From assembly GCA_020848455.1 (NCBI GenBank), contig JADLAB010000458.1, positions 1 to 34,426 of the forward strand: a stretch of 34,426 nt of DNA, written 5' to 3'. A model generated the notes under the pieces. The model made no database searches, was not told where the DNA came from, and saw only the letters and a list, made by a program, of their open reading frames with translations. How positions within the stretch are numbered: position 1 is the stretch's first letter; every line of letters begins with the position of its first letter. Below are positions 23,894 through 34,426 of this stretch, one piece after another. The DNA is from Polyangiaceae bacterium (GTDB lineage: Bacteria > Myxococcota_A > Polyangia > Polyangiales > Polyangiaceae). The position numbers and the translations under genes were made by a program.

Positions 23894-25243
23894 TCAATCG
23901 CGCAGCTTGTACTTCTTGATCTTGTCGTGCAGCGTGACCCGATCCACCTCGAGCGCGCGCGCGGCCCGCGCGAGGTCCCAGTCGTGGCGCTCGAGGATGC
24001 GCGCGATGTGGAGCTTCTCGGCGTCGGCCAGCGTCACGGGCTCGTCCGTCGCCGCCGCGACGGGTGAGTCGTGAAGGGCCACGAGGTCCTTCACGTCCAC
24101 GCTGGGGGGCTCGGCGAGCACCGCGGCGCGCTCGATGGTGTGCAGGAGCTCGCGCACGTTGCCGGGCCATGGGTAGCGCTCCAAGAGCGCGATGGCCTCG
24201 GGGGTGATGTCGACGAGGTCCTTGTCGAGCTTCGCGGCGAAGCGCCGGACGAAGTGGCGCGCCAGGAGCGGAACGTCGCCGGTGCGCTCGCGCAGGGGGG
24301 GCAGATCGATGCGGAAGCCCTGGATGCGGAAGTAGAGATCCTCGCGCAGCTCCTGCTTGGCCACGAGGGCCTCGAGGTCCTGGCTCGTGGCGCACAGCAG
24401 CCGGAAGTCGACCGCCACCGGGCGCGCGCCGCCGGTGCGCGTGAGCTCCTTCTGCTCGAGCACCTGCAACAGCTCCGCCTGCGCCTGCGCGCCGATGCGG
24501 CCGACGTCGTCCAGGAACAGGGTGCCCCCGTCGGCCTGCTCGAGCTTGCCGCGGCGCCGGTGTTGCGCGCGCGTGGCGGCTCCCGGCTCGATGCCGAACA
24601 GCTCGCTGTAGAGCAGGGCTTCCGGCAGGGCTCCGCAATGGACCGGCACCAGCGGGAAGTGGCGTCGCGCGCTCTTGCCGTGAAGGGCGCGCGCCACGAG
24701 CTCCTTGCCCGTGCCGCTCTCGCCGTGGATGAGGACGGTCATGTCGCTTGCGGCCAGGGCATCGACCGACTCGCTCACGCGGCGCATCGCCGGGCTCTGG
24801 CCCACGATCTCGTCCCACTCGGCGAGCGACGCGATCTTGGAGCGCAGCCGGGTGTTCTCGTCGGTCAGGCGCCGGTGCGCGAGCGCCTTCTGCACCACGC
24901 GACCGAGATCGTCCGGGTCGACCGGCTTGGTCAGGTAGTCGAACGCGCCCGCCTTGAGGGCCTCGATCGCGGTCTCGATGCTGCCGTAGGCGGTGATCAT
25001 GATCACGACCGCATCGGGCGCGACCTGTCGCAGGCGCCGCTGCAGCTCGAGCCCGTCCATGCCTGGCATCTTGATGTCCAAGAGGACCAGGTCCCAGGGC
25101 TCCTCCTGGAACTTCTGCAGGGCCGCGGCGGCGCTCTCGGCCTGCGCGACGCGGAAGCCGTCCTTCTTGAACCAGTGAAAGAGCGAGTCCCTGATCGAGA
25201 GCTCGTCGTCGACGACCAGGATGCCGTAGCCTTCACTCACCAC
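23894..25243 (-). CDS. NtrC-type response regulator with degenerate GAFTGA loop
   Basis: A 449-residue regulator. The receiver (1-120) is intact, with DDE and phosphoacceptor Asp56, and lysine in LTKPVDPDDL. The AAA+ domain keeps Walker A GESGTGKE (174-181) and the arginine-finger region REDLYFRI. However, the sigma-54 contact loop reads GAATRA (221-226) instead of GAFTGA, Walker B reads TLFLDDVG, and ATNQDL has become ATSQDL. The Fis-type DNA-binding end (DRVTLHDKIKKYKLRD) is nearly identical to that of the intact regulator at 27135. In NtrC-family proteins loss of the loop Phe abolishes sigma-54 contact, so this may be a DNA-binding repressor or decoy. The GTG start overlaps the end of the diheme kinase gene by 7 bases. 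Confidence 0.9.
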   Translation of the reverse strand: MVSEGYGILVVDDELSIRDSLFHWFKKDGFRVAQAESAAAALQKFQEEPWDLVLLDIKMPGMDGLELQRRLRQVAPDAVVIMITAYGSIETAIEALKAGAFDYLTKPVDPDDLGRVVQKALAHRRLTDENTRLRSKIASLAEWDEIVGQSPAMRRVSESVDALAASDMTVLIHGESGTGKELVARALHGKSARRHFPLVPVHCGALPEALLYSELFGIEPGAATRAQHRRRGKLEQADGGTLFLDDVGRIGAQAQAELLQVLEQKELTRTGGARPVAVDFRLLCATSQDLEALVAKQELREDLYFRIQGFRIDLPPLRERTGDVPLLARHFVRRFAAKLDKDLVDITPEAIALLERYPWPGNVRELLHTIERAAVLAEPPSVDVKDLVALHDSPVAAATDEPVTLADAEKLHIARILERHDWDLARAARALEVDRVTLHDKIKKYKLRD

Positions 25244-26868
25244 CGTTCACCACCTTCGCTTGCGTGGCCGTCGTGCGACTCGCGGGGCGAGGTCGCCGGC
25301 GCACGGGGGAAGACCATCCGGAACGTGGTCCCGGCGCCCGGCCTGGACTCCACGTCGATGCGACCGTCGTGGCGGCGGACGATACCGTACACCACCGCCA
25401 AGCCTAGCCCGACCCCCTTGTCGCCCTTGGTCGACACGAACGGCTCGAAGATCTCCGGCAACACCTCCGGGGGGATGCCGACCCCGGTGTCGCTGATGGT
25501 CACGGCGATGGAGCTCTCGCCGGCCTCGGTCCCTATGCGCAGCTCGCCGCCGTCCGGCATCGCCTCGACCGCGTTCACGAGGAGCGCGACCAGCGCCTGC
25601 TGGAGCTGGGCCGCATCGCAGAAGAGGCGGTCGTCCCCCTCGGCCGGCGTGACCACGTGCTCCACGTTGTTCGTCTTGAGCAGGTGCTGCACCGTCATCA
25701 GGCTCTTGTCGACGATGGCGTTGACGCCGTGCTCCGCCATCACGTCCTTCGACACGCGGGCGAAGGACAAGAGGTTCTTCACGATCTCGCCGCAGCGCGA
25801 GGACTCCGAGCGCACCATCTCCACGTAGCCTTGCAGCTCTTGTCGTTCCTCTTCGGTCAGGGTCGGCTGGGCGAGATCGCGCTGGATCAGCTTGGCGTAC
25901 ACCAGGATGCCGCCGAGCGGGTTGTTCAGCTCGTGGGCGACGGTGGCGGCGAGCTTGCCGAGCGAGGCCATCTTCTCCATGTGCGTGATGTGCCGCTGGG
26001 CCACGGCGAGCTCGTGGGTCTTCTTGTCGACCGCCTGCGCCAGCTCTTCCTCCCACTTTTCGCTGCGCTCGCGCGCGATCGCCAGCTCACGGCCCATCTG
26101 GTTGAAGGCCTCGGCGAGCTCGACCAGCTCCTTGCCGCGAGTCACCTTCACGCGCGCGCTGAGATCGCCCGCTGCCACGCGACGCGTGCCCTCCACGAGA
26201 GAGAGCACCGGCCGGCGGACGAAACGCCAGATGAAGAGCGCGGTCGCGACCCCGCCCACCACGGCCATGAGGACGGCGGTCCAGAGCGTGGCGCGCTCGG
26301 CGCTGACCCGGCCCTCTTCGGCCGGCTCCATCGACATCTGGAAGTCCATCAGGCCGAGGTACTCCTGGCTGGCAGTGGAGACGTGGCACCTGCCGCCCGC
26401 GCACTGCTCGGAGTTCCGGATCATGCGGGACTGGGCCATCACCGGCATCCCGCTCGCGTCTCGGAAGGTGCGCGTCGAGCTCGTCGCCTCGGCCACGCCG
26501 AAGGGCGTGCCGTGGCAGGTCACGCAGACCTCGGCGCTCCTCGTGATCTTGGTGCGCAGGTCCTGCGGCACGGTCGAGAAGTGGATCTCGCCCTGCTTGT
26601 CGTAGATGCGGATGCTGCGGATCCCCGGGGCGTCGGCCAGGTCCGCGAGCGCGGCGTGCACGGCCTCCTTGTTCTTGAGCAGCATCCCCTGCCGCAGCAC
26701 CCGCTCGATGATGGCGGTGGTCTGACCCGCGTGCTGCTCGAAGGACTTCTCCCAGGTGTCCGTCGTCCGCCGCGCGTTGAAGTAGGAGAACGACAGGAAC
26801 ACGATCACCACGGAACCGAAGATCCCGAGGAACAGGTTCACGCCGATCGAGCTCTTCAATCGCGACAT
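25237..26868 (-). CDS. Histidine kinase with c-type diheme sensor domain
   Basis: A 543-residue kinase. A first transmembrane helix (10-30) is followed by a periplasmic sensor (31-195) containing CVTCH (Cys115-Cys118-His119) and an atypical C-x4-CH motif (Cys156, Cys161, His162). That layout resembles the DUF3365/Tll0287-like heme-binding sensors. After a second helix (196-218) come a HAMP domain (213-266), a coiled coil, the H-box VAHELNNPLGG with His312, and the ATPase motifs VALLVNAVEA, DTGVGIP and GVGLGLAVV. It should report the redox or ligand state of periplasmic heme to the co-encoded regulator. The regulator gene overlaps its end. A TAGACT -10-like box and GCAGG precede the ATG. The dihemic state needs the cytochrome c maturation system. 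Confidence 0.92.
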   Translation of the reverse strand: MSRLKSSIGVNLFLGIFGSVVIVFLSFSYFNARRTTDTWEKSFEQHAGQTTAIIERVLRQGMLLKNKEAVHAALADLADAPGIRSIRIYDKQGEIHFSTVPQDLRTKITRSAEVCVTCHGTPFGVAEATSSTRTFRDASGMPVMAQSRMIRNSEQCAGGRCHVSTASQEYLGLMDFQMSMEPAEEGRVSAERATLWTAVLMAVVGGVATALFIWRFVRRPVLSLVEGTRRVAAGDLSARVKVTRGKELVELAEAFNQMGRELAIARERSEKWEEELAQAVDKKTHELAVAQRHITHMEKMASLGKLAATVAHELNNPLGGILVYAKLIQRDLAQPTLTEEERQELQGYVEMVRSESSRCGEIVKNLLSFARVSKDVMAEHGVNAIVDKSLMTVQHLLKTNNVEHVVTPAEGDDRLFCDAAQLQQALVALLVNAVEAMPDGGELRIGTEAGESSIAVTISDTGVGIPPEVLPEIFEPFVSTKGDKGVGLGLAVVYGIVRRHDGRIDVESRPGAGTTFRMVFPRAPATSPRESHDGHASEGGERW

Positions 26869-26907: not shown

Positions 26908-27134
26908 GGTCATGCTGCGCCGTTGCGCTGGCACAACGCGTCATCGGCAGGCGCGAGCAGCTCGCTCGCCACCCGCGTTCCACCGTGGCTGGAATCTGGG
27001 GCCAAGCCGATCTCGCCTCCCGATCGTGCCCGGGCGGGCACGCAACCGGCAGCCGGCGTGCGAAGATGTTCACGGACTCGCCCGTGCCGTGCCCGCTGGG
27101 CAGGTCCCGCCGAGCCCGGCCGCTGGAGACCCGC

Positions 27135-28499
<1,365 letters not shown>

Positions 28500-28508
28500 C
28501 CGCTCGCC

Positions 28509-29039
28509 ATGACCGACCTCTGGCTGCTTCCGCTCTCGCTCCGCGAGCCCCCCGAGCTGCTGCGCTGGCTCGGCCACGCGCTCGCGCCCGTGTTCCACGC
28601 CAAGGTGGGGCTGCTCCAGCGCGAGCTCGCGCTCGACGGCGGGCGACACCCGATGCGACGCCAGGTCGACGCCGGCTGGATCCTGTCCCAGCTCCTCGGC
28701 CTGCCCGACCCCGGCCTCGTGCTGGCGGTGACCAGCGAGGACCTGTACCTGCCGGTCTTCACCTACGTGATCGGCGAGGCCTGCCTGGGCGGCCGCGCGG
28801 CGGTCGTGTCGACGCATCGCCTGCACGAGGAGCGCTACGGGATGGCGCCGAACGTGGAGCGGCTGCGCGCGCGTGTGGTGAAGGAGGCGATCCACGAGAT
28901 CGGGCACTGCCACGGGCTCGTCCACTGTCCGAGCGGCGCGTGCGTGATGCACTCGTCGTCGTCGGTGGAGGACGTGGACAACAAGGGGCATGAGCTGTGT
29001 CCCGAGTGCGCGCGCGCGGTCACGCGGCGGCGGGGGTGA
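28509..29039 (+). CDS. amzA: Archaemetzincin-family zinc metalloprotease
   Basis: A 176-residue protein with the archaemetzincin signature. The catalytic zinc site is HEIGHCHGLVH (three His ligands, Glu as base), followed by Cys-x4-Cys-Val-Met, with the Met of the Met-turn, and a second pair CPEC. The extra four Cys form the structural zinc site known from the family. It has no signal peptide and so is probably cytoplasmic. Family members exist in archaea, some bacteria and animals (AMZ1 and AMZ2) and their natural substrates are unknown. It begins 9 bases after the sigma-54 regulator's stop, so it is probably translated from the same message. Its link with the redox cluster is positional only. 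It converges with the GcvH-like gene 5 bases away. Confidence 0.9.
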   Translation: MTDLWLLPLSLREPPELLRWLGHALAPVFHAKVGLLQRELALDGGRHPMRRQVDAGWILSQLLGLPDPGLVLAVTSEDLYLPVFTYVIGEACLGGRAAVVSTHRLHEERYGMAPNVERLRARVVKEAIHEIGHCHGLVHCPSGACVMHSSSSVEDVDNKGHELCPECARAVTRRRG

Positions 29040-29044
29040 GCGGG

Positions 29045-29785
29045 TCAGCAGAACAGCTCGTCGCGCACGGCGTCCCACGTCGCGTCGTCGAGGTCGGAGA
29101 GATCGCCGACGAGCTCGCCGCCGTCCGCCATCGCGACCCCGAGCGCGTGCGGTGACGCGGCCGCCACCAGCCGATCGATCTCCCGGCCCAACCATGCGCG
29201 GGCCTGCTCGCCGCGCATGAGGTCCTCGAGCGCCGCCCCTGGCGCCGGCGCGCTCGGGGTGAGCTCGACGAGCCAGCCCTGTCGGTAGGGCGCGCGGTTG
29301 ATCATCCCCGGATCGCGGGCGAGCTGGCGGTTCGCGCGCGCGACCGTCCCCGCCACCGGGGCCCGCGCCGCGATCGACCGCCCGCCGTGTCGCAGCACGG
29401 CGATCACCTCGCCCACCTCGACGCGGTCCCCGACCTTCGCGATCTGCACCGCGTCGACCGTTCCGAGCGTGAGCTGCGTGAGGTCGTCGACGCCCGTGCG
29501 CACGCGCCCGGCCGGGGTGCGGCGTGCCCACGTGTGCCTGGGCCCGATCCGGAGCCGGAGCGGGAGCTGTACCCCCTTCACCTGCGCGAGCGAGAGCTCG
29601 AAGCGCTGCGCGAGTGCCTGCGCGCCGGTGAACACGCCGGCGAGCACGACGAGCGCGGGCATGAAGACGGCGAGCCCGGCGCGCGGCCCGACACCGGCGA
29701 CCGCCAGGAGCAGCAGCAGCGCGACGAGCCCGAGCGGGATCGCGAGCCGTGCGTCGAGGACGGACCCTGAATTGCGCTTGTTCAT
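29045..29785 (-). CDS. Membrane-anchored GcvH-like protein without lipoyl-lysine (copy 1)
   Basis: A 246-residue protein. Two hydrophobic helices (14-32 and 36-58) are followed by a GcvH-type barrel (about 82-178): HTWARR at 84-89, GVDDLTQLTLGTV, VGDRVEVGE, APVAGTVARAN and GWLVELTP. Ungapped alignment with GcvH puts Gly135 where the lipoylated lysine of ESVKA should be (here LRHGGRS), so it is unlikely to carry lipoate. A conserved tail (about 185-246, with LMRGEQARAWL, ADGGEL and LDDATWD) is shared with the two related genes. It is not a working glycine-cleavage H protein, and no gcvT or gcvP is nearby. The barrel is probably cytoplasmic, judged from the basic N-terminus. AAGGTGA precedes the ATG. 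Function is unknown. Confidence 0.85.
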   Translation of the reverse strand: MNKRNSGSVLDARLAIPLGLVALLLLLAVAGVGPRAGLAVFMPALVVLAGVFTGAQALAQRFELSLAQVKGVQLPLRLRIGPRHTWARRTPAGRVRTGVDDLTQLTLGTVDAVQIAKVGDRVEVGEVIAVLRHGGRSIAARAPVAGTVARANRQLARDPGMINRAPYRQGWLVELTPSAPAPGAALEDLMRGEQARAWLGREIDRLVAAASPHALGVAMADGGELVGDLSDLDDATWDAVRDELFC

Positions 29786-29818
29786 GGCTCACCTTGTGAA
29801 AAGGGGCGCGGGCGCCGC

Positions 29819-29840
29819 CGTGACGCACCACGGCGTCACG
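29819..29840 (-). other. Intercistronic hairpin in the multiheme operon
   Basis: Perfect 8-base arms CGTGACGC / GCGTCACG enclose a 6-base loop, in the 114-base gap between the 25-heme gene and GcvH-like copy 1. There is no U-tract directly after, so it is not a standard terminator. It could stop some transcripts, protect the upstream message or act as an operator. The rest of the gap shows only the ribosome-binding site of copy 1. Confidence 0.45.
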
Positions 29841-29899
29841 CAGACACCGAGTCCCGTAGCAGCGTGTGGGCTCGCCGAGCCGTGCGGTTGGCCTCGGTC

Positions 29900-31564
29900 T
29901 CAGCGGAAGAGGTGACAGGCGTAGCAGCGCGGGCCCTCCGCCTCGTGGTCGCGGCGGTCGACATGGCAGTTGGACGTGCACGTCTGGCGCTGGGGCAGGG
30001 ACCCGTGGGCCGAGTGGCAGTTGGCGCAGGTCGCGTGCTCGGCGATGCCGTGCAGCTTTGCCTGCGGTGTCGTGTGGCAGCTCTTGCAGCCAGGCGTCGC
30101 GTCCGCGCCCACCGAGTGCGCCTTGTGACAGGTCGCGCAGCCACCCGCGCGCTGTGCGTGCGTCGTCTGCGCCTGGCCGATGTGACAGCTCGCGCAGTTG
30201 TCCTTCGAGCGCACCGCCCCGGAGTGCGGCTCGTGGCACTTCGAGCACTCGGCGTGGCCGGCCGGCGCGCTCGCCTGCTCCGCGGCGTGGCAGCTCGCGC
30301 ACTTCGGCGGTGTCGTCGGCGCGTGCACGTCGGCGTGGCAGCTCGCGCAGTTCGCGTGTCCGCTCTGGGTCGAGGCGAGCTTCACCTCGCTCGTGTGACA
30401 GCGGGCGCAGAGCGCGGTGGCGGTCGCCGGCGCCGCGACCTGGTGCGGCGCGTGGCAGCTCGTGCACGACAGCGTCGCCGCGTGCGCGCCGCCGGTCGTC
30501 GCGTGGCACGACGTGCACGCCGCGGCCTTCTGCTCCGGCGCGTGCGCGTCGTGGCAGGCGGTGCAAGAGCGCGGCGCGTCGGAGCCGCCGCTCGCGCCGT
30601 GCGACGCGCCGGTACGGCCCGCGTGCTCCACGCGCACCGTCGTGTGACAGCGCGCGCAGGAGGCGTCGCCGGTCTCGGTCGGCGCTTGCGCCGAGTGACA
30701 GCTCGTGCAGGCCGCATGCTCGGCGACCCGGTTGGCGCGCTGCACGACCTTCTGGCCGTGGCAGGTGGCGCAGCTGCCCGCCGCCCGCGGGGTGTCGGCG
30801 TGCGGCTGGTGGCAGCTGACGCACTCGCCCCGCTGCGCGGCGGCAGCGTGGCCGTGGGCCCGGACCTGCTCATGACAGCCCTGGCACGACTCGCGCGCCG
30901 CGGACGCGGGGGCGTGGTCGGCGTGGCAGTCCGAGCAACCCTGGCTGCCCGCGTGCGCCGCGTGCGCCTTGGCGTTGTCCGTGTGGCACGAGATGCAGGC
31001 CGGGGCCTGGGTGTCGCCGTGGGCGCTGTGGCAGCTGGCGCAGTCGACCTTGGCGTGGCCGTCCTCGATGGGCGCGAGCATCGGCGCGAGCTCGGCGACG
31101 ACGACGGCGCGGGGCTGCGGGTCCTGGTGACAGTCGAGGCACTCGGGCGTGGTGCTCTCCGGCCGGAAGCCGTGGCAGGTGACGCAGCCGGTGCCGTCGG
31201 TGGCACCGTGCCCGCGGTCGGACTTGTCGGCGTGACAGTCGGCGCTCGCGCAGGCGCGCTCGCCGGCCTCCTCGAAGCCGCCGGCCGCGTGGCACTCCTT
31301 GCAGACCACGCGACCGAGGTGCGCCTCGTGCCCGGGGCTCGCACGGAAGGCGGCCCACGTCTCGCCGTCGTGGTCGCGCGGCGGCTGCGGGGGCTCGTCG
31401 CCGATCAGGAACCAGGCGACGGCGTCCGGCGGCGACCAGACGCCTTCACGGGAGACCTGGGCCGGGGCGCGCGTCTCCGAGCCGCACGCCGAGACGAGGG
31501 GCGCGAAGGCGGCGAAGGCGAGGACCAGGAAGAGTGTCGCGTGTTGGGCTCGGGGGGACCACAT
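29900..31564 (-). CDS. 25-heme c-type cytochrome lipoprotein
   Basis: A 554-residue protein with a lipoprotein signal (LVSAC) and, by direct count, 23 canonical CxxCH heme motifs plus one C-x4-CH (CASADCH, near the start) and one C-x3-CH (CTSNCH, near the end). The motifs recur about every 15-25 residues, many of them followed by a distal His, suggesting bis-His hemes in a long chain. Such proteins move electrons across the periplasm or outward from the outer membrane. ATG at 31564 is preferred to the upstream GTG because AAGGTGA lies 8 bases before it. It follows the cytochrome b gene by 49 bases in the operon. No outer-membrane porin partner is seen in the window. Confidence 0.93.
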   Translation of the reverse strand: MWSPRAQHATLFLVLAFAAFAPLVSACGSETRAPAQVSREGVWSPPDAVAWFLIGDEPPQPPRDHDGETWAAFRASPGHEAHLGRVVCKECHAAGGFEEAGERACASADCHADKSDRGHGATDGTGCVTCHGFRPESTTPECLDCHQDPQPRAVVVAELAPMLAPIEDGHAKVDCASCHSAHGDTQAPACISCHTDNAKAHAAHAGSQGCSDCHADHAPASAARESCQGCHEQVRAHGHAAAAQRGECVSCHQPHADTPRAAGSCATCHGQKVVQRANRVAEHAACTSCHSAQAPTETGDASCARCHTTVRVEHAGRTGASHGASGGSDAPRSCTACHDAHAPEQKAAACTSCHATTGGAHAATLSCTSCHAPHQVAAPATATALCARCHTSEVKLASTQSGHANCASCHADVHAPTTPPKCASCHAAEQASAPAGHAECSKCHEPHSGAVRSKDNCASCHIGQAQTTHAQRAGGCATCHKAHSVGADATPGCKSCHTTPQAKLHGIAEHATCANCHSAHGSLPQRQTCTSNCHVDRRDHEAEGPRCYACHLFR

Positions 31565-31613
31565 CGGGATTCTCACCTTCTGCTCAGCAAGAAGCCTGCC
31601 GCGGTGACGGCGC

Positions 31614-32273
31614 CTAGGCGCGCTCGGCGCGCGCGGCCTTGGGGGTCGTGGCCGGCGGCGGTGGCGGCGGGACGCGATCTCCGAGCAGCATCGACGCGAC
31701 GCCCGTGTGAGGCTCGCCGACCGTGAGGGCGAGGTACAGGTGGACGAACAGGAACGCGCAGGACGCGTAGGCGACGATGGAGTGGCCGAGGGCCATCGGC
31801 CAGACGCCGCCGAGGCCGAGCACCTGCTCGGGCGCGAGGTCCGGGAAGAGCAACAGGAGCCCGGTCACGATCTGCGCCGGAATGAGGACGAACACGGCGA
31901 AGACGTACGCGAGCTGCTGGACGGGGTTGAAGCGCCGCTCCGGGACGGCCACGAAGGGGTGGTGCTCGCCGCGCAGGATGCCGAACACGTAGAAGCGCAC
32001 CTGCTTGACCGAGTCGCCGAGGATCGTCCGCCTCGGGAGGTACTGGCGCCAGTGTCCCGTGATGACCATGGCGACGAGGTAGCCCACGAACGCCACCACG
32101 AGCCCGACCCCGAGGACGTTGTGGACGAGGACGGAGATGCGGAAGCCCACGCCGACGGAGCCGGACCCGGCGAAGTGCAGGCTGAAGCCGGTCACGATCA
32201 GCACGGCGAACAGCACGGCGTTGAGCCAGTGCCAGAGCCGCAACCAGCGGGGGAACATGGTGCGCTTCTTCAT
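31614..32273 (-). CDS. Four-helix cytochrome b (b561/HydC-like) membrane subunit
   Basis: A 219-residue integral membrane protein with four transmembrane helices and histidines placed as heme b ligands: LWHWLNAV in helix 1 (His15), VLVHNVLG in helix 2, and GHSIV and FVHLYLAL in helix 4. This is the pattern of the cytochrome b561 / formate-dehydrogenase-gamma / HydC family, which carries two b hemes and oxidises or reduces quinol. The C-terminus is a short Pro-rich cytoplasmic tail. It begins inside the stop of the heptaheme gene (four-base ATGA overlap) after AGGAGG, so the two are translationally coupled and very likely one complex, passing quinol electrons to the c hemes. Confidence 0.93.
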   Translation of the reverse strand: MKKRTMFPRWLRLWHWLNAVLFAVLIVTGFSLHFAGSGSVGVGFRISVLVHNVLGVGLVVAFVGYLVAMVITGHWRQYLPRRTILGDSVKQVRFYVFGILRGEHHPFVAVPERRFNPVQQLAYVFAVFVLIPAQIVTGLLLLFPDLAPEQVLGLGGVWPMALGHSIVAYASCAFLFVHLYLALTVGEPHTGVASMLLGDRVPPPPPPATTPKAARAERA

Positions 32274-33271
32274 GACGGGTGTCCTCCTGCGTGCACGACG
32301 CGCCGGCGAAACGCCTTGTGGAACAGGAACCGGAGCAGGCCGTGTCCCGCGATCCCGCCCCCCGCGCCACCGATGACGATGATCATGAGGGCGTCGAGCA
32401 GCCCGTTGCGCGTGGCGCCGATCACGTACGCGTCGTCGATGAGCCTGGCGTTGAGGAAGCCGAGCTTGTCGACGTCGCCGTCGCCGCGGTCGCGGTACCG
32501 ACGGAGCAGCTGCGTGGGGGTCTCGGCGTGACAGGCCTCGCAGTTCTTGACGGCCTCTTCCTTGGGCAAGATGAGGTGGGAGGCGAGCGGCGCGTCGTAC
32601 CCCGTGTGACAGTCGAGGCAGCGGACCGTCTGCCAGTGGAGATCCCGGTTGGGGAGCCAGGCGTGCGCCTCGTCCAGATCGGGCGGCGCCTTGTCGACGA
32701 GCTTCTGGAACCGCGCCTCGTCGGCGTGGCAATGGAGGCAGACCTTGTTGTGCTCGAAGAGGCGGGCGCGCGTCGTGGGGAGCTGCAGCGTGTGCGCGTC
32801 GTGGCAGTGGACGCAGCGGAACTCGGCGCTCTTCTGGGCGTGCACGCTCTGCTCGAAGTCCTCGGCGATGTCCTTGAACGCGACGCCGCCCTCTCGGGTC
32901 TCGTTCACCACGTGGCAATCGCGGCAGTCGGCGCGGCGCGCGGGCGGGTGGGGATCGACGGCGAACGAGCGGGCGTGGCAGTCGCCGCACACCATCTCGC
33001 GGTGCTCGCTCTCGGCGAGGCCCTGCTGGTCGACGTAGACGCTGGCCTTGCGTTCGCCGGGATCCTCGCGAACGGCGTCCTGCTCGCCGTGACAGCTCAG
33101 GCACGCGCTCGCGTCCGGCTGGGCTGCCGCCCGCCCCGCAGAGAGCGCGAGGGCGGCGCCGAGGAGGGCCGCGGGGAGCGCCGCGGCACGGCGCCGCGAC
33201 GCCCGCGACGCCCGCGACCTGGAGGAGCTCGTAGTGGAGGGGTGATTGCGCTCGGTGCCCATGGGACCCAT
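32270..33271 (-). CDS. Heptaheme c-type cytochrome with C-terminal membrane helix
   Basis: A 333-residue protein. A long, Arg/Ser-rich N-terminus leads into a signal sequence (ALPAALLGAALALSAG) cleaved near AAA-QP. Seven CxxCH motifs follow (CLSCH, CGDCH, CRDCH, CVHCH, CLHCH, CLDCH, CEACH). Residues near 300-325 form a membrane helix (LMIIVIGGAGGGIAG), so the heme domain is tethered to the periplasmic face of the inner membrane. It resembles the periplasmic half of Geobacter CbcL-type quinol oxidoreductases, here encoded separately from the b subunit. AGAGG lies 2 bases before the ATG at 33271; a second in-frame ATG at 33262 has the better spacing and may be the true start. It lies 43 bases after GcvH-like copy 2. 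Confidence 0.9.
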   Translation of the reverse strand: MGPMGTERNHPSTTSSSRSRASRASRRRAAALPAALLGAALALSAGRAAAQPDASACLSCHGEQDAVREDPGERKASVYVDQQGLAESEHREMVCGDCHARSFAVDPHPPARRADCRDCHVVNETREGGVAFKDIAEDFEQSVHAQKSAEFRCVHCHDAHTLQLPTTRARLFEHNKVCLHCHADEARFQKLVDKAPPDLDEAHAWLPNRDLHWQTVRCLDCHTGYDAPLASHLILPKEEAVKNCEACHAETPTQLLRRYRDRGDGDVDKLGFLNARLIDDAYVIGATRNGLLDALMIIVIGGAGGGIAGHGLLRFLFHKAFRRRVVHAGGHPS

Positions 33272-33314
33272 TGCCTCTCGCGCTGCGTTGCCTGACGCTC
33301 GAACGACCTTCCGC

Positions 33315-34061
33315 TCAGGAGAAGAACTCGCTCTGCACCCTGTCCCACGTCGCATCGTCGAGCGTGGACAGGTCGAGCGACACCTCGCCGCCGTCCGCCA
33401 TCGCGGCTCCGACCGCGCTCGGCGTGGTCACGGCGACCAGGCGACTCACCTCGCGCTCCATCCACGCCTTGACCGGCTCGCCGCGCATGAGCGACGCGAG
33501 GACCGAGTCGCGGGAGGCGCGCGGCATGAGCTCCACCAGCCACCCGCGGCCGTACGGCGCGCGGCTCACGCGGCCGGCGTCGCGCGCGAGCGCCTCGTTC
33601 ACCCGGGCGATCGTCCCGGCGACCGGGGCGCGCGCGGCGATCGACCGGCTACCCCGCCGGAGGATCGCGACCACGTCACCCGCCTCGACGCGCTCGCCGA
33701 CGAGCCTGGTCTCGACCGCATCGACCTCGCCGATCACGCGCTGTGCGAAGGCGTCGATCCCCGCGCGCACGCGACCGCCACCGGCGTGAGTCGCCCACAC
33801 GTGGCGCGCGTGCATCCAGAGGCGCTTGGGAATGTCGATCCCCATCACCCGGACGAAGCGCGCCGTGACCACGTAGGCGGCCACCTGGAGCGCCGTGAGG
33901 CCCACCACGGTCGCCATGAACATCACGAAGGCCGCTTTCAGCGCGAGGCCGACGAAGGCGAGCGACGGGATCATGACTGCGAAGGCGATGGGGATCGGCA
34001 GGAACCAAGCCCACTGCCAGCTCGTTCGGTCGTTTTCGATGTGGTCTTGCATGGCACCCAT
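33315..34061 (-). CDS. Membrane-anchored GcvH-like protein without lipoyl-lysine (copy 2)
   Basis: A 248-residue relative of copy 1. Two hydrophobic helices (about 17-36 and 42-68) are followed by the GcvH-type barrel: HVWAT at 87-91, VGERVEAGDVVAIL, APVAGTIARVN and GWLVELMP. The lysine position is Ser138 within LRRGSRS, so no lipoate is expected. The tail again shows LMRGEPVKAWM, ADGGEV and LDDATWD, ending FFS. GGAG lies 2 bases before the first ATG; ATG at 34052 is an alternative. It directly precedes the heptaheme gene, so it is presumably made with the quinol oxidase. Sequence agreement with copy 1 is highest in the barrel and the tail, not in the helices. Confidence 0.85.
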   Translation of the reverse strand: MGAMQDHIENDRTSWQWAWFLPIPIAFAVMIPSLAFVGLALKAAFVMFMATVVGLTALQVAAYVVTARFVRVMGIDIPKRLWMHARHVWATHAGGGRVRAGIDAFAQRVIGEVDAVETRLVGERVEAGDVVAILRRGSRSIAARAPVAGTIARVNEALARDAGRVSRAPYGRGWLVELMPRASRDSVLASLMRGEPVKAWMEREVSRLVAVTTPSAVGAAMADGGEVSLDLSTLDDATWDRVQSEFFS

Positions 34062-34141
34062 CGCTCCGTCTGGGGTCGCTGCGACGTGGCTTCACACCCG
34101 GGCGGCGCGCCGCGTTCTACGCCGCGCGCACGCTACGCCCC

Positions 34142-34170
34142 GGCCCCCCCGGCCCCCCGGCCCCCCGGCC
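34142..34170. repeat. Short GC tandem repeat (GGCCCCCC, about 3.5 units)
   Basis: Three units of GGCCCCCC (the first with an extra C) and a partial fourth lie in the 129-base gap between GcvH-like copies 2 and 3. It may be slippage-prone. The rest of the gap shows no gene. Confidence 0.6.
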
Positions 34171-34190
34171 CGAGCTCGAGCGCTTCAGCT

Positions 34191-34426
34191 TCAGGGGAAC
34201 AGCTCGGTGGTCAGGCGCTTCCAGGTGACGGCGTCGAGGTGCGAGCCCACATCGCCGACGACCTCACCGCCGTCCGCCAGCCTCACCGCGTCGGGGGACG
34301 GCGCCATCAGCGCCACCAGGCGATCGATCTCGCTCCGCATCCAGCGGGCGGCGCGGCCGCCACCGACGAGCTCCTTCATGTAGCTGGCGACGTTGGGCGT
34401 ATCGGGCGTCATCTCCACGAGCCAGC
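34191..34426 (-). CDS. GcvH-like protein, C-terminal part only (copy 3, runs off the window)
   Basis: The visible 77 residues start with WLVEMTPDTP, the end of the GcvH barrel, and continue into the same conserved tail as copies 1 and 2: ARWMRSEIDRLVAL, then LADGGEV and a final TWKRLTTELFP. The 5' end, membrane helices and lysine region lie beyond base 34426, so whether it can be lipoylated is unknown. It is upstream of copy 2 in the same direction, showing that the operon continues past the right edge of the window. Confidence 0.8.
   Translation of the reverse strand, partial: WLVEMTPDTPNVASYMKELVGGGRAARWMRSEIDRLVALMAPSPDAVRLADGGEVVGDVGSHLDAVTWKRLTTELFP

Follow-up and report, generated by a model that had tools for sequence, protein, structure and literature searches.

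The stretch of DNA analysed here (the window) comprises 34,426 nucleotides from a Polyangiaceae bacterium (assembly GCA_020848455.1, contig JADLAB010000458.1, positions 1-34,426 of the forward strand). At its end lie three paralogous genes for membrane proteins that resemble GcvH, the glycine cleavage H-protein, all within an operon for multiheme cytochromes. By alignment, all three products are without the lysine to which H-proteins attach their lipoyl group. The relevant features are:

29045-29785, minus strand: GcvH-like copy 1, with two N-terminal hydrophobic helices and Gly135 at the lysine position (Pfam GCV_H and alignment)
33315-34061, minus strand: GcvH-like copy 2, with two N-terminal hydrophobic helices, the barrel and a C-terminal extension (Pfam GCV_H, alignment and structure)
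33648-33650, minus strand: codon of Ser138 of copy 2, the equivalent of the lipoyl-lysine (alignment)
34191-34426, minus strand: C-terminal end of GcvH-like copy 3, which opens the operon and is continued on contig G000:C256 (L003); the lysine position holds Glu

The original prediction, made from the sequence of the window, had assigned a GcvH barrel to copies 1 and 2, and Pfam GCV_H was matched by both (64.0 and 60.6 bits, respectively; cut-off 22.2 bits). It had also placed Gly135 and Ser138 at the lipoyl-lysine position, which was reproduced by an alignment with canonical GcvH sequences, including that of the organism's own genome, in which, without any gap at this position, the lysine column was occupied by Gly in copy 1 and by Ser in copy 2. 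A structure model of copy 2 was computed with a predicted local distance difference test score of 55 overall and 76-83 in the barrel. All 22 Foldseek matches of this model at E ≤ 0.001 were H-proteins, and it could be superposed on solved H-proteins (VIA Z 13.3 over 107 residues, 2.7 Å). Given this fold match, the register at the lysine column is beyond doubt. The two N-terminal membrane helices attributed to copies 1 and 2 were supported by hydropathy, which revealed two hydrophobic helices in all three copies.

Copy 3 had been glimpsed only from the end of its barrel, as a possible third paralogue, and it proved to be real. Its last 77 residues lie in the window at 34191-34424, and the end of the window (34426) is joined to the end of contig C256 of the same genome by a 127-bp exact overlap inside the gene. 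The assembly break within copy 3 is thus an artefact and the two draft contigs join, whereas an artefactual origin of copy 3 itself at the contig end was ruled out by this overlap and by a complete orthologue in a same-genus metagenome-assembled genome (G001, Myxococcales JACRDA01). Completed from C256, the hairpin has the sequence GEREI, which places Glu in the lysine column and is shared by the aligned copy 3 orthologue of G001. In this genome, the sole match in a scan of genome contigs for relatives, the three copies lie together on a single contig and are ordered alike, and its counterpart of copy 2 is 84% identical. The claim that at least two copies had lost the lipoyl-lysine therefore extends to all three, which are predicted to be unlipoylated.

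As had been stated, no other glycine-cleavage genes (gcvT or gcvP) were found in the window. The canonical gcvH of the genome lies elsewhere (contig C332), retains its Lys and adjoins a gcvPA-like gene. A canonical GcvH identity was rejected for the window copies on the grounds of the absent lysine, the missing gcvT and gcvP, and scores against the gcvH equivalog model TIGR00527 of 55.1 and 51.7 bits for copies 1 and 2 (cut-off 115.85 bits). Pseudogenes were also considered as an explanation of the copies and rejected.

The multiheme cytochrome operon was likewise borne out, and runs on the minus strand in the order copy 3, copy 2, 7-heme cytochrome, cytochrome b, 25-heme cytochrome and copy 1. 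Its other members and the neighbouring genes are:

32270-33271, minus strand: 7-heme c-type cytochrome, with seven CxxCH motifs (Cytochrome_C7 / Cytochrom_c3_2)
31614-32273, minus strand: cytochrome b (Ni_hydr_CYTB, Pfam PF01292, 84.6 bits), with four hydrophobic helices
29900-31576, minus strand: c-type cytochrome with about 25 heme motifs (23 CxxCH, one CX3CH and one CX4CH) and a lipobox-like LVSAC
28509-29039, plus strand: archaemetzincin (peptidase M54; Pfam PF07998, 79.5 bits), with the complete HExxHxxGx3Cx4CxM...CxxC motif
26985-28499, plus strand: sigma-54-dependent response regulator (Response_reg, Sigma54_activat and HTH_8)
25237-26868, minus strand: membrane histidine kinase (HAMP, HisKA and HATPase_c), whose extracytoplasmic portion bears CxxCH and CX3CH
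23894-25243, minus strand: second sigma-54-dependent response regulator (Pfam), overlapping the kinase gene

The 7-heme cytochrome has an N-terminal signal-like segment and a C-terminal membrane helix; its open reading frame extends to 33355, with a start near 33271 preferred, and its stop is overlapped by the start of the cytochrome b gene. A membrane cytochrome b and a membrane-anchored multiheme c subunit are thus encoded in one operon, which is the layout of a quinol:cytochrome c oxidoreductase, the predicted activity. The 25-heme cytochrome is small (558 residues) and very densely packed with heme motifs. Chance occurrence of CxxCH in a GC-rich frame was rejected, given 23 such motifs plus Pfam cytochrome matches.

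The sigma-54 two-component system with its CxxCH-bearing kinase, the archaemetzincin gene and a sigma-54-like site before copy 3 were not part of the original prediction. The archaemetzincin and the first response regulator face the operon, and the histidine kinase is likely to be a c-heme redox sensor, as suggested by its extracytoplasmic motifs. The site is of the -24/-12 type with one mismatch (TGGCACGGGCGGTGCT) and lies 53 bp before the start of copy 3 (L003:1192-1207, on C256), so that the operon appears to begin at a putative sigma-54 promoter, with two sigma-54 regulators adjacent. Similar sites precede the first GcvH-like gene by 54 bp in G001 and by 55 bp in the more distant genome G145. 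Across the family of such proteins, a sigma-54-like site was present within 200 bp of the start in 20/55 genes, compared with 0/20 canonical ones and 2.5% of random 400-bp stretches of the same loci; the stretches scanned varied in length, and the binomial p values (for rates of 6% and 2%) are approximate.

This family was delineated by profile searches covering about 489 Myxococcota genomes, at least 28 of which contained non-canonical GcvH-like members. In the resulting tree, these were split from canonical GcvH with a support of 100/97; copies 1 and 2 were sisters, and copy 3 grouped with the single copy of G145 (99/95), the gene of which is followed by those of an 11-heme cytochrome and a 10-heme cytochrome b fusion. 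The lysine column was occupied by a residue other than Lys in 52 of the 55 family domains (Gly in 24, Asp in 8, Gln in 6, Glu in 4, Ala in 4, then others), whereas Lys was present in 22/22 canonical sequences. The stretch following the G-W of the barrel had a median length of 75 residues in the family versus 28.5 in canonical GcvH. A tblastn search against plasmids yielded ordinary gcvH only.

Co-occurrence with cytochrome genes, which had been proposed as a check, and with other redox neighbours was examined across genomes. Case loci were picked by the GcvH-like domain alone (36 loci from 23 genera), and 40 controls combined 20 canonical gcvH loci of the phylum with 20 arbitrary loci from family-carrying genomes. 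Windows at contig ends were shorter, a bias that runs against detecting neighbours. Among the case loci, 17 contained NrfD, 17 iron-sulfur (FeS) proteins, 14 multiheme cytochromes, 19 archaemetzincin, 21 sigma-54 regulators and 17 heme-bearing kinases; the corresponding numbers among the controls were 0, 0, 1, 0, 6 and 0. When one locus was counted per genus, respiratory genes (NrfD, cytochrome b or multiheme cytochrome) were found in 14/23 versus 1/40 controls (p 2.7e-7), archaemetzincin in 13/23 versus 0/40 (p 1.1e-7) and NrfD in 11/23 versus 0/40. With the loci that had supplied the queries omitted, the figures were 10/19 versus 1/40 for respiratory genes (p 1.3e-5) and 11/19 versus 0/40 for archaemetzincin (p 2.7e-7). 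The GcvH-like family is hence recurrently linked to redox genes, in line with the original prediction, and also to regulatory genes, but NrfD/FeS or NuoEF-type modules often take the place of cytochrome b among its partners. Of the refuting outcomes named beforehand, those examined here (a lysine at the lipoyl position, or no recurring linkage to cytochrome genes) were not observed. CxxCH-bearing homologues of the window kinase recur beside the family.

In several loci, kinase, sigma-54 regulator and M54 genes follow one another in this order or with the last two swapped; examples of neighbouring archaemetzincin genes are L070:7818-8432 and L077:17204-17791.

Several members are fused to further domains. 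A NuoG-like 2Fe-2S/4Fe-4S ferredoxin is joined to a lysine-less barrel in L071:6398-7693, L073:3451-5484, L080:7449-8771, L081:4346-5662 and L123:8017-9315, with NuoE/NuoF-like genes alongside in L073, L080 and L081, the first of which also contains CCG and FAD-type genes (FAD, flavin adenine dinucleotide). Receiver domains are fused to GcvH in three genomes (L086:7891-8703, L129:2061-3242, and L130:168-935 and 907-2163), a combination of which we know of no description. Finally, the N-terminal parts of L072:8195-9187, L074:8047-9081, L071:7725-8672, L119:10809-11600 and L127:6559-7467 hold a four-Cys domain before the barrel (roughly C-W-x-x-x-G-x(6-8)-C-x(5)-[DE]C-x2-C, single or tandem), which had no Pfam match in the two that were scanned (L072 and L074) and, judging from this motif, likely binds a metal or a cluster.

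Among known proteins, the closest parallel is the glycine cleavage H-protein itself (PF01597, TIGR00527), with which the window copies share the barrel fold and clear sequence similarity (60-64 bits; Z 13.3), but from which they differ in the missing lipoyl-lysine, the N-terminal membrane helices, the extra C-terminal stretch and the absence of glycine-cleavage neighbours. The named GcvH relatives outside glycine cleavage, GcvH_rel_desulf (NF045810) and not_gcvH (TIGR03077), were matched by copies 1 and 2 with 27-31 and 39-40 bits, respectively, against cut-offs of 150 and 144 bits, and no NCBIfam model reached its cut-off for any family member tried. The N-terminal barrel-sandwich hybrid domain of RnfC is a related barrel that serves a redox enzyme and bears no lipoyl group. 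RnfC_N (PF13375) was the runner-up Pfam match of copy 1, below threshold (15.8 bits, E 0.015; cut-off 25.6 bits), and is counted in favour of redox docking; unlike RnfC, the window copies have no flavin/NADH domain attached (NADH, reduced nicotinamide adenine dinucleotide). LbpA lipoate-binding proteins of the sHdr sulfur-oxidation pathway likewise resemble GcvH, have been co-opted for a role other than glycine cleavage and are associated with redox (Hdr-like) gene clusters, but their lysine is strictly kept and lipoylated (PMC6067878), which is not so in the present family. No Hdr-like gene was found in the window operon, and the single case of a relative near CCG/FAD-type genes is L073. By gene position, the family may also be likened to the GcvH-like LarG, reported to be encoded near the act operon of Pelobacter carbinolicus and thus near an NrfD-containing (Act) quinone complex, for which a lipoyl carrier role was proposed by the authors (PMC3543383). 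The copies are accordingly read as a novel form of an established fold, whose genetic context is recurrent in the Myxococcota searched and undescribed: no account of lysine-less GcvH in respiratory clusters was found in the open-licence literature, in keeping with the earlier view that this is not a characterised system.

We consider that there is an even chance that the unlipoylated GcvH family provides docking or scaffold subunits of sigma-54-controlled redox modules. Such a role fits the family because of its constant pairing with redox modules, the several paralogues per locus and the fusions to electron carriers, and a subunit function is consistent with the two or three copies carried by 15/36 loci. 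In the window, the sensor kinase would probably read the extracytoplasmic (periplasmic) redox state and turn the operon on, whereupon quinol would be oxidised by cytochrome b together with the 7-heme subunit, and the 25-heme, lipoprotein-like cytochrome would receive the electrons. N-terminal helices would anchor the GcvH-like proteins, with the barrel most likely in the cytoplasm. These proteins may form a hetero-oligomer with the membrane subunits, offering a binding surface that would either serve assembly or accept a redox or regulatory partner from the cytoplasm; the lipoyl arm would have no part in this. The cytoplasmic location is favoured because Lys or Arg residues directly follow the last helix in most members with transmembrane segments, and the barrel is placed among cytoplasmic electron carriers because the NuoG-like fusions adjoin NuoE/NuoF genes. 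The docking role, complex formation, the cytoplasmic side and the direction of electron flow are what we infer from this combined evidence. A broader version is put forward tentatively, with less than even confidence: two or three paralogous barrels may constitute a cytoplasmic docking platform that links NADH/ferredoxin-type or regulatory partners to membrane NrfD/cytochrome b complexes and periplasmic multiheme cytochromes, with archaemetzincin in assembly or control, and would define an undescribed class of sigma-54-controlled redox module.

Several points weigh against the docking reading. The structure model of copy 2, built from five sequences, is weak outside the barrel; complex formation is a proposal, and the membrane topology is predicted from a charge rule. 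Some FeS partners of the family carry a Tat-like signal and others do not, so that a single common docking partner is not obvious. Moreover, 8/36 loci lack a respiratory, ferredoxin or complete regulatory neighbourhood in the available sequence, in some cases owing to short contigs, and the receiver-domain fusions suit a regulatory role equally well.

The latter leads to the main rival, in which the barrel is chiefly a signalling adaptor that either binds the sensor kinase or response regulator or is itself a phosphorylation-controlled effector, and so makes sigma-54 control responsive to the state of the respiratory complex. Besides the fusions in L086, L129 and L130, it draws on the heme-bearing kinases found within about 9 kb in 10/23 genera versus 0/40 controls, and on the sigma-54 regulators found in 14/23 versus 6/40. 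However, the same barrel is fused to a NuoG-like ferredoxin beside NuoEF, and in L076, L120 and L129 it is encoded in operons immediately next to FeS and NrfD genes where no kinase is present, cases that a purely regulatory role misses; we judge this explanation less likely than the docking role.

That the proteins are still carriers, with a nearby lysine lipoylated or another cofactor bound, is improbable. A Lys is found at the column itself in 3/55 family members and within three residues of it in 15/55, but none of the window copies has such a substitute, the canonical flanking residues (ESVK.. or SQK..) are absent throughout, and the column varies freely (G, D, Q, E, A, L, S, N, R or P). 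Nor does the family barrel contain any conserved Cys or His besides an H-x-W common to canonical GcvH.

Very little credence is given to the linkage as a by-product of cytochrome-rich genomes, in which the GcvH-like genes would be passengers. While the patchy distribution across the phylum would suit this, arbitrary loci from the same genomes rarely show such neighbours (respiratory genes in 1/20, archaemetzincin and NrfD in 0/20 each), and fusions to redox domains are incompatible with passenger status. Finally, decaying or moonlighting glycine-cleavage H-proteins, suggested by the fold and the detectable similarity to GcvH, are scarcely credible in view of the intact, Lys-bearing gcvH beside a gcvPA-like gene in the genome, the three copies kept in a second genome, the membrane helices, the family-specific C-terminal stretch and the apparently regulated operons.

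Few carrier proteins are as well known as GcvH, whose defining feature is its lipoyl group. That a lysine-less branch is kept in two or three copies in apparently regulated respiratory operons suggests that electron-transfer complexes benefit from the fold as such. In annotations, many of these genes probably bear the name glycine cleavage H-protein, with misleading pathway predictions as the result. The family also ties archaemetzincin, a widespread protease of obscure role in bacteria, to one genetic context. Taken with the membrane anchors and the recurring, apparently regulated electron-transfer clusters, the loss of the lysine suggests that this ancient fold serves in a role not described so far.

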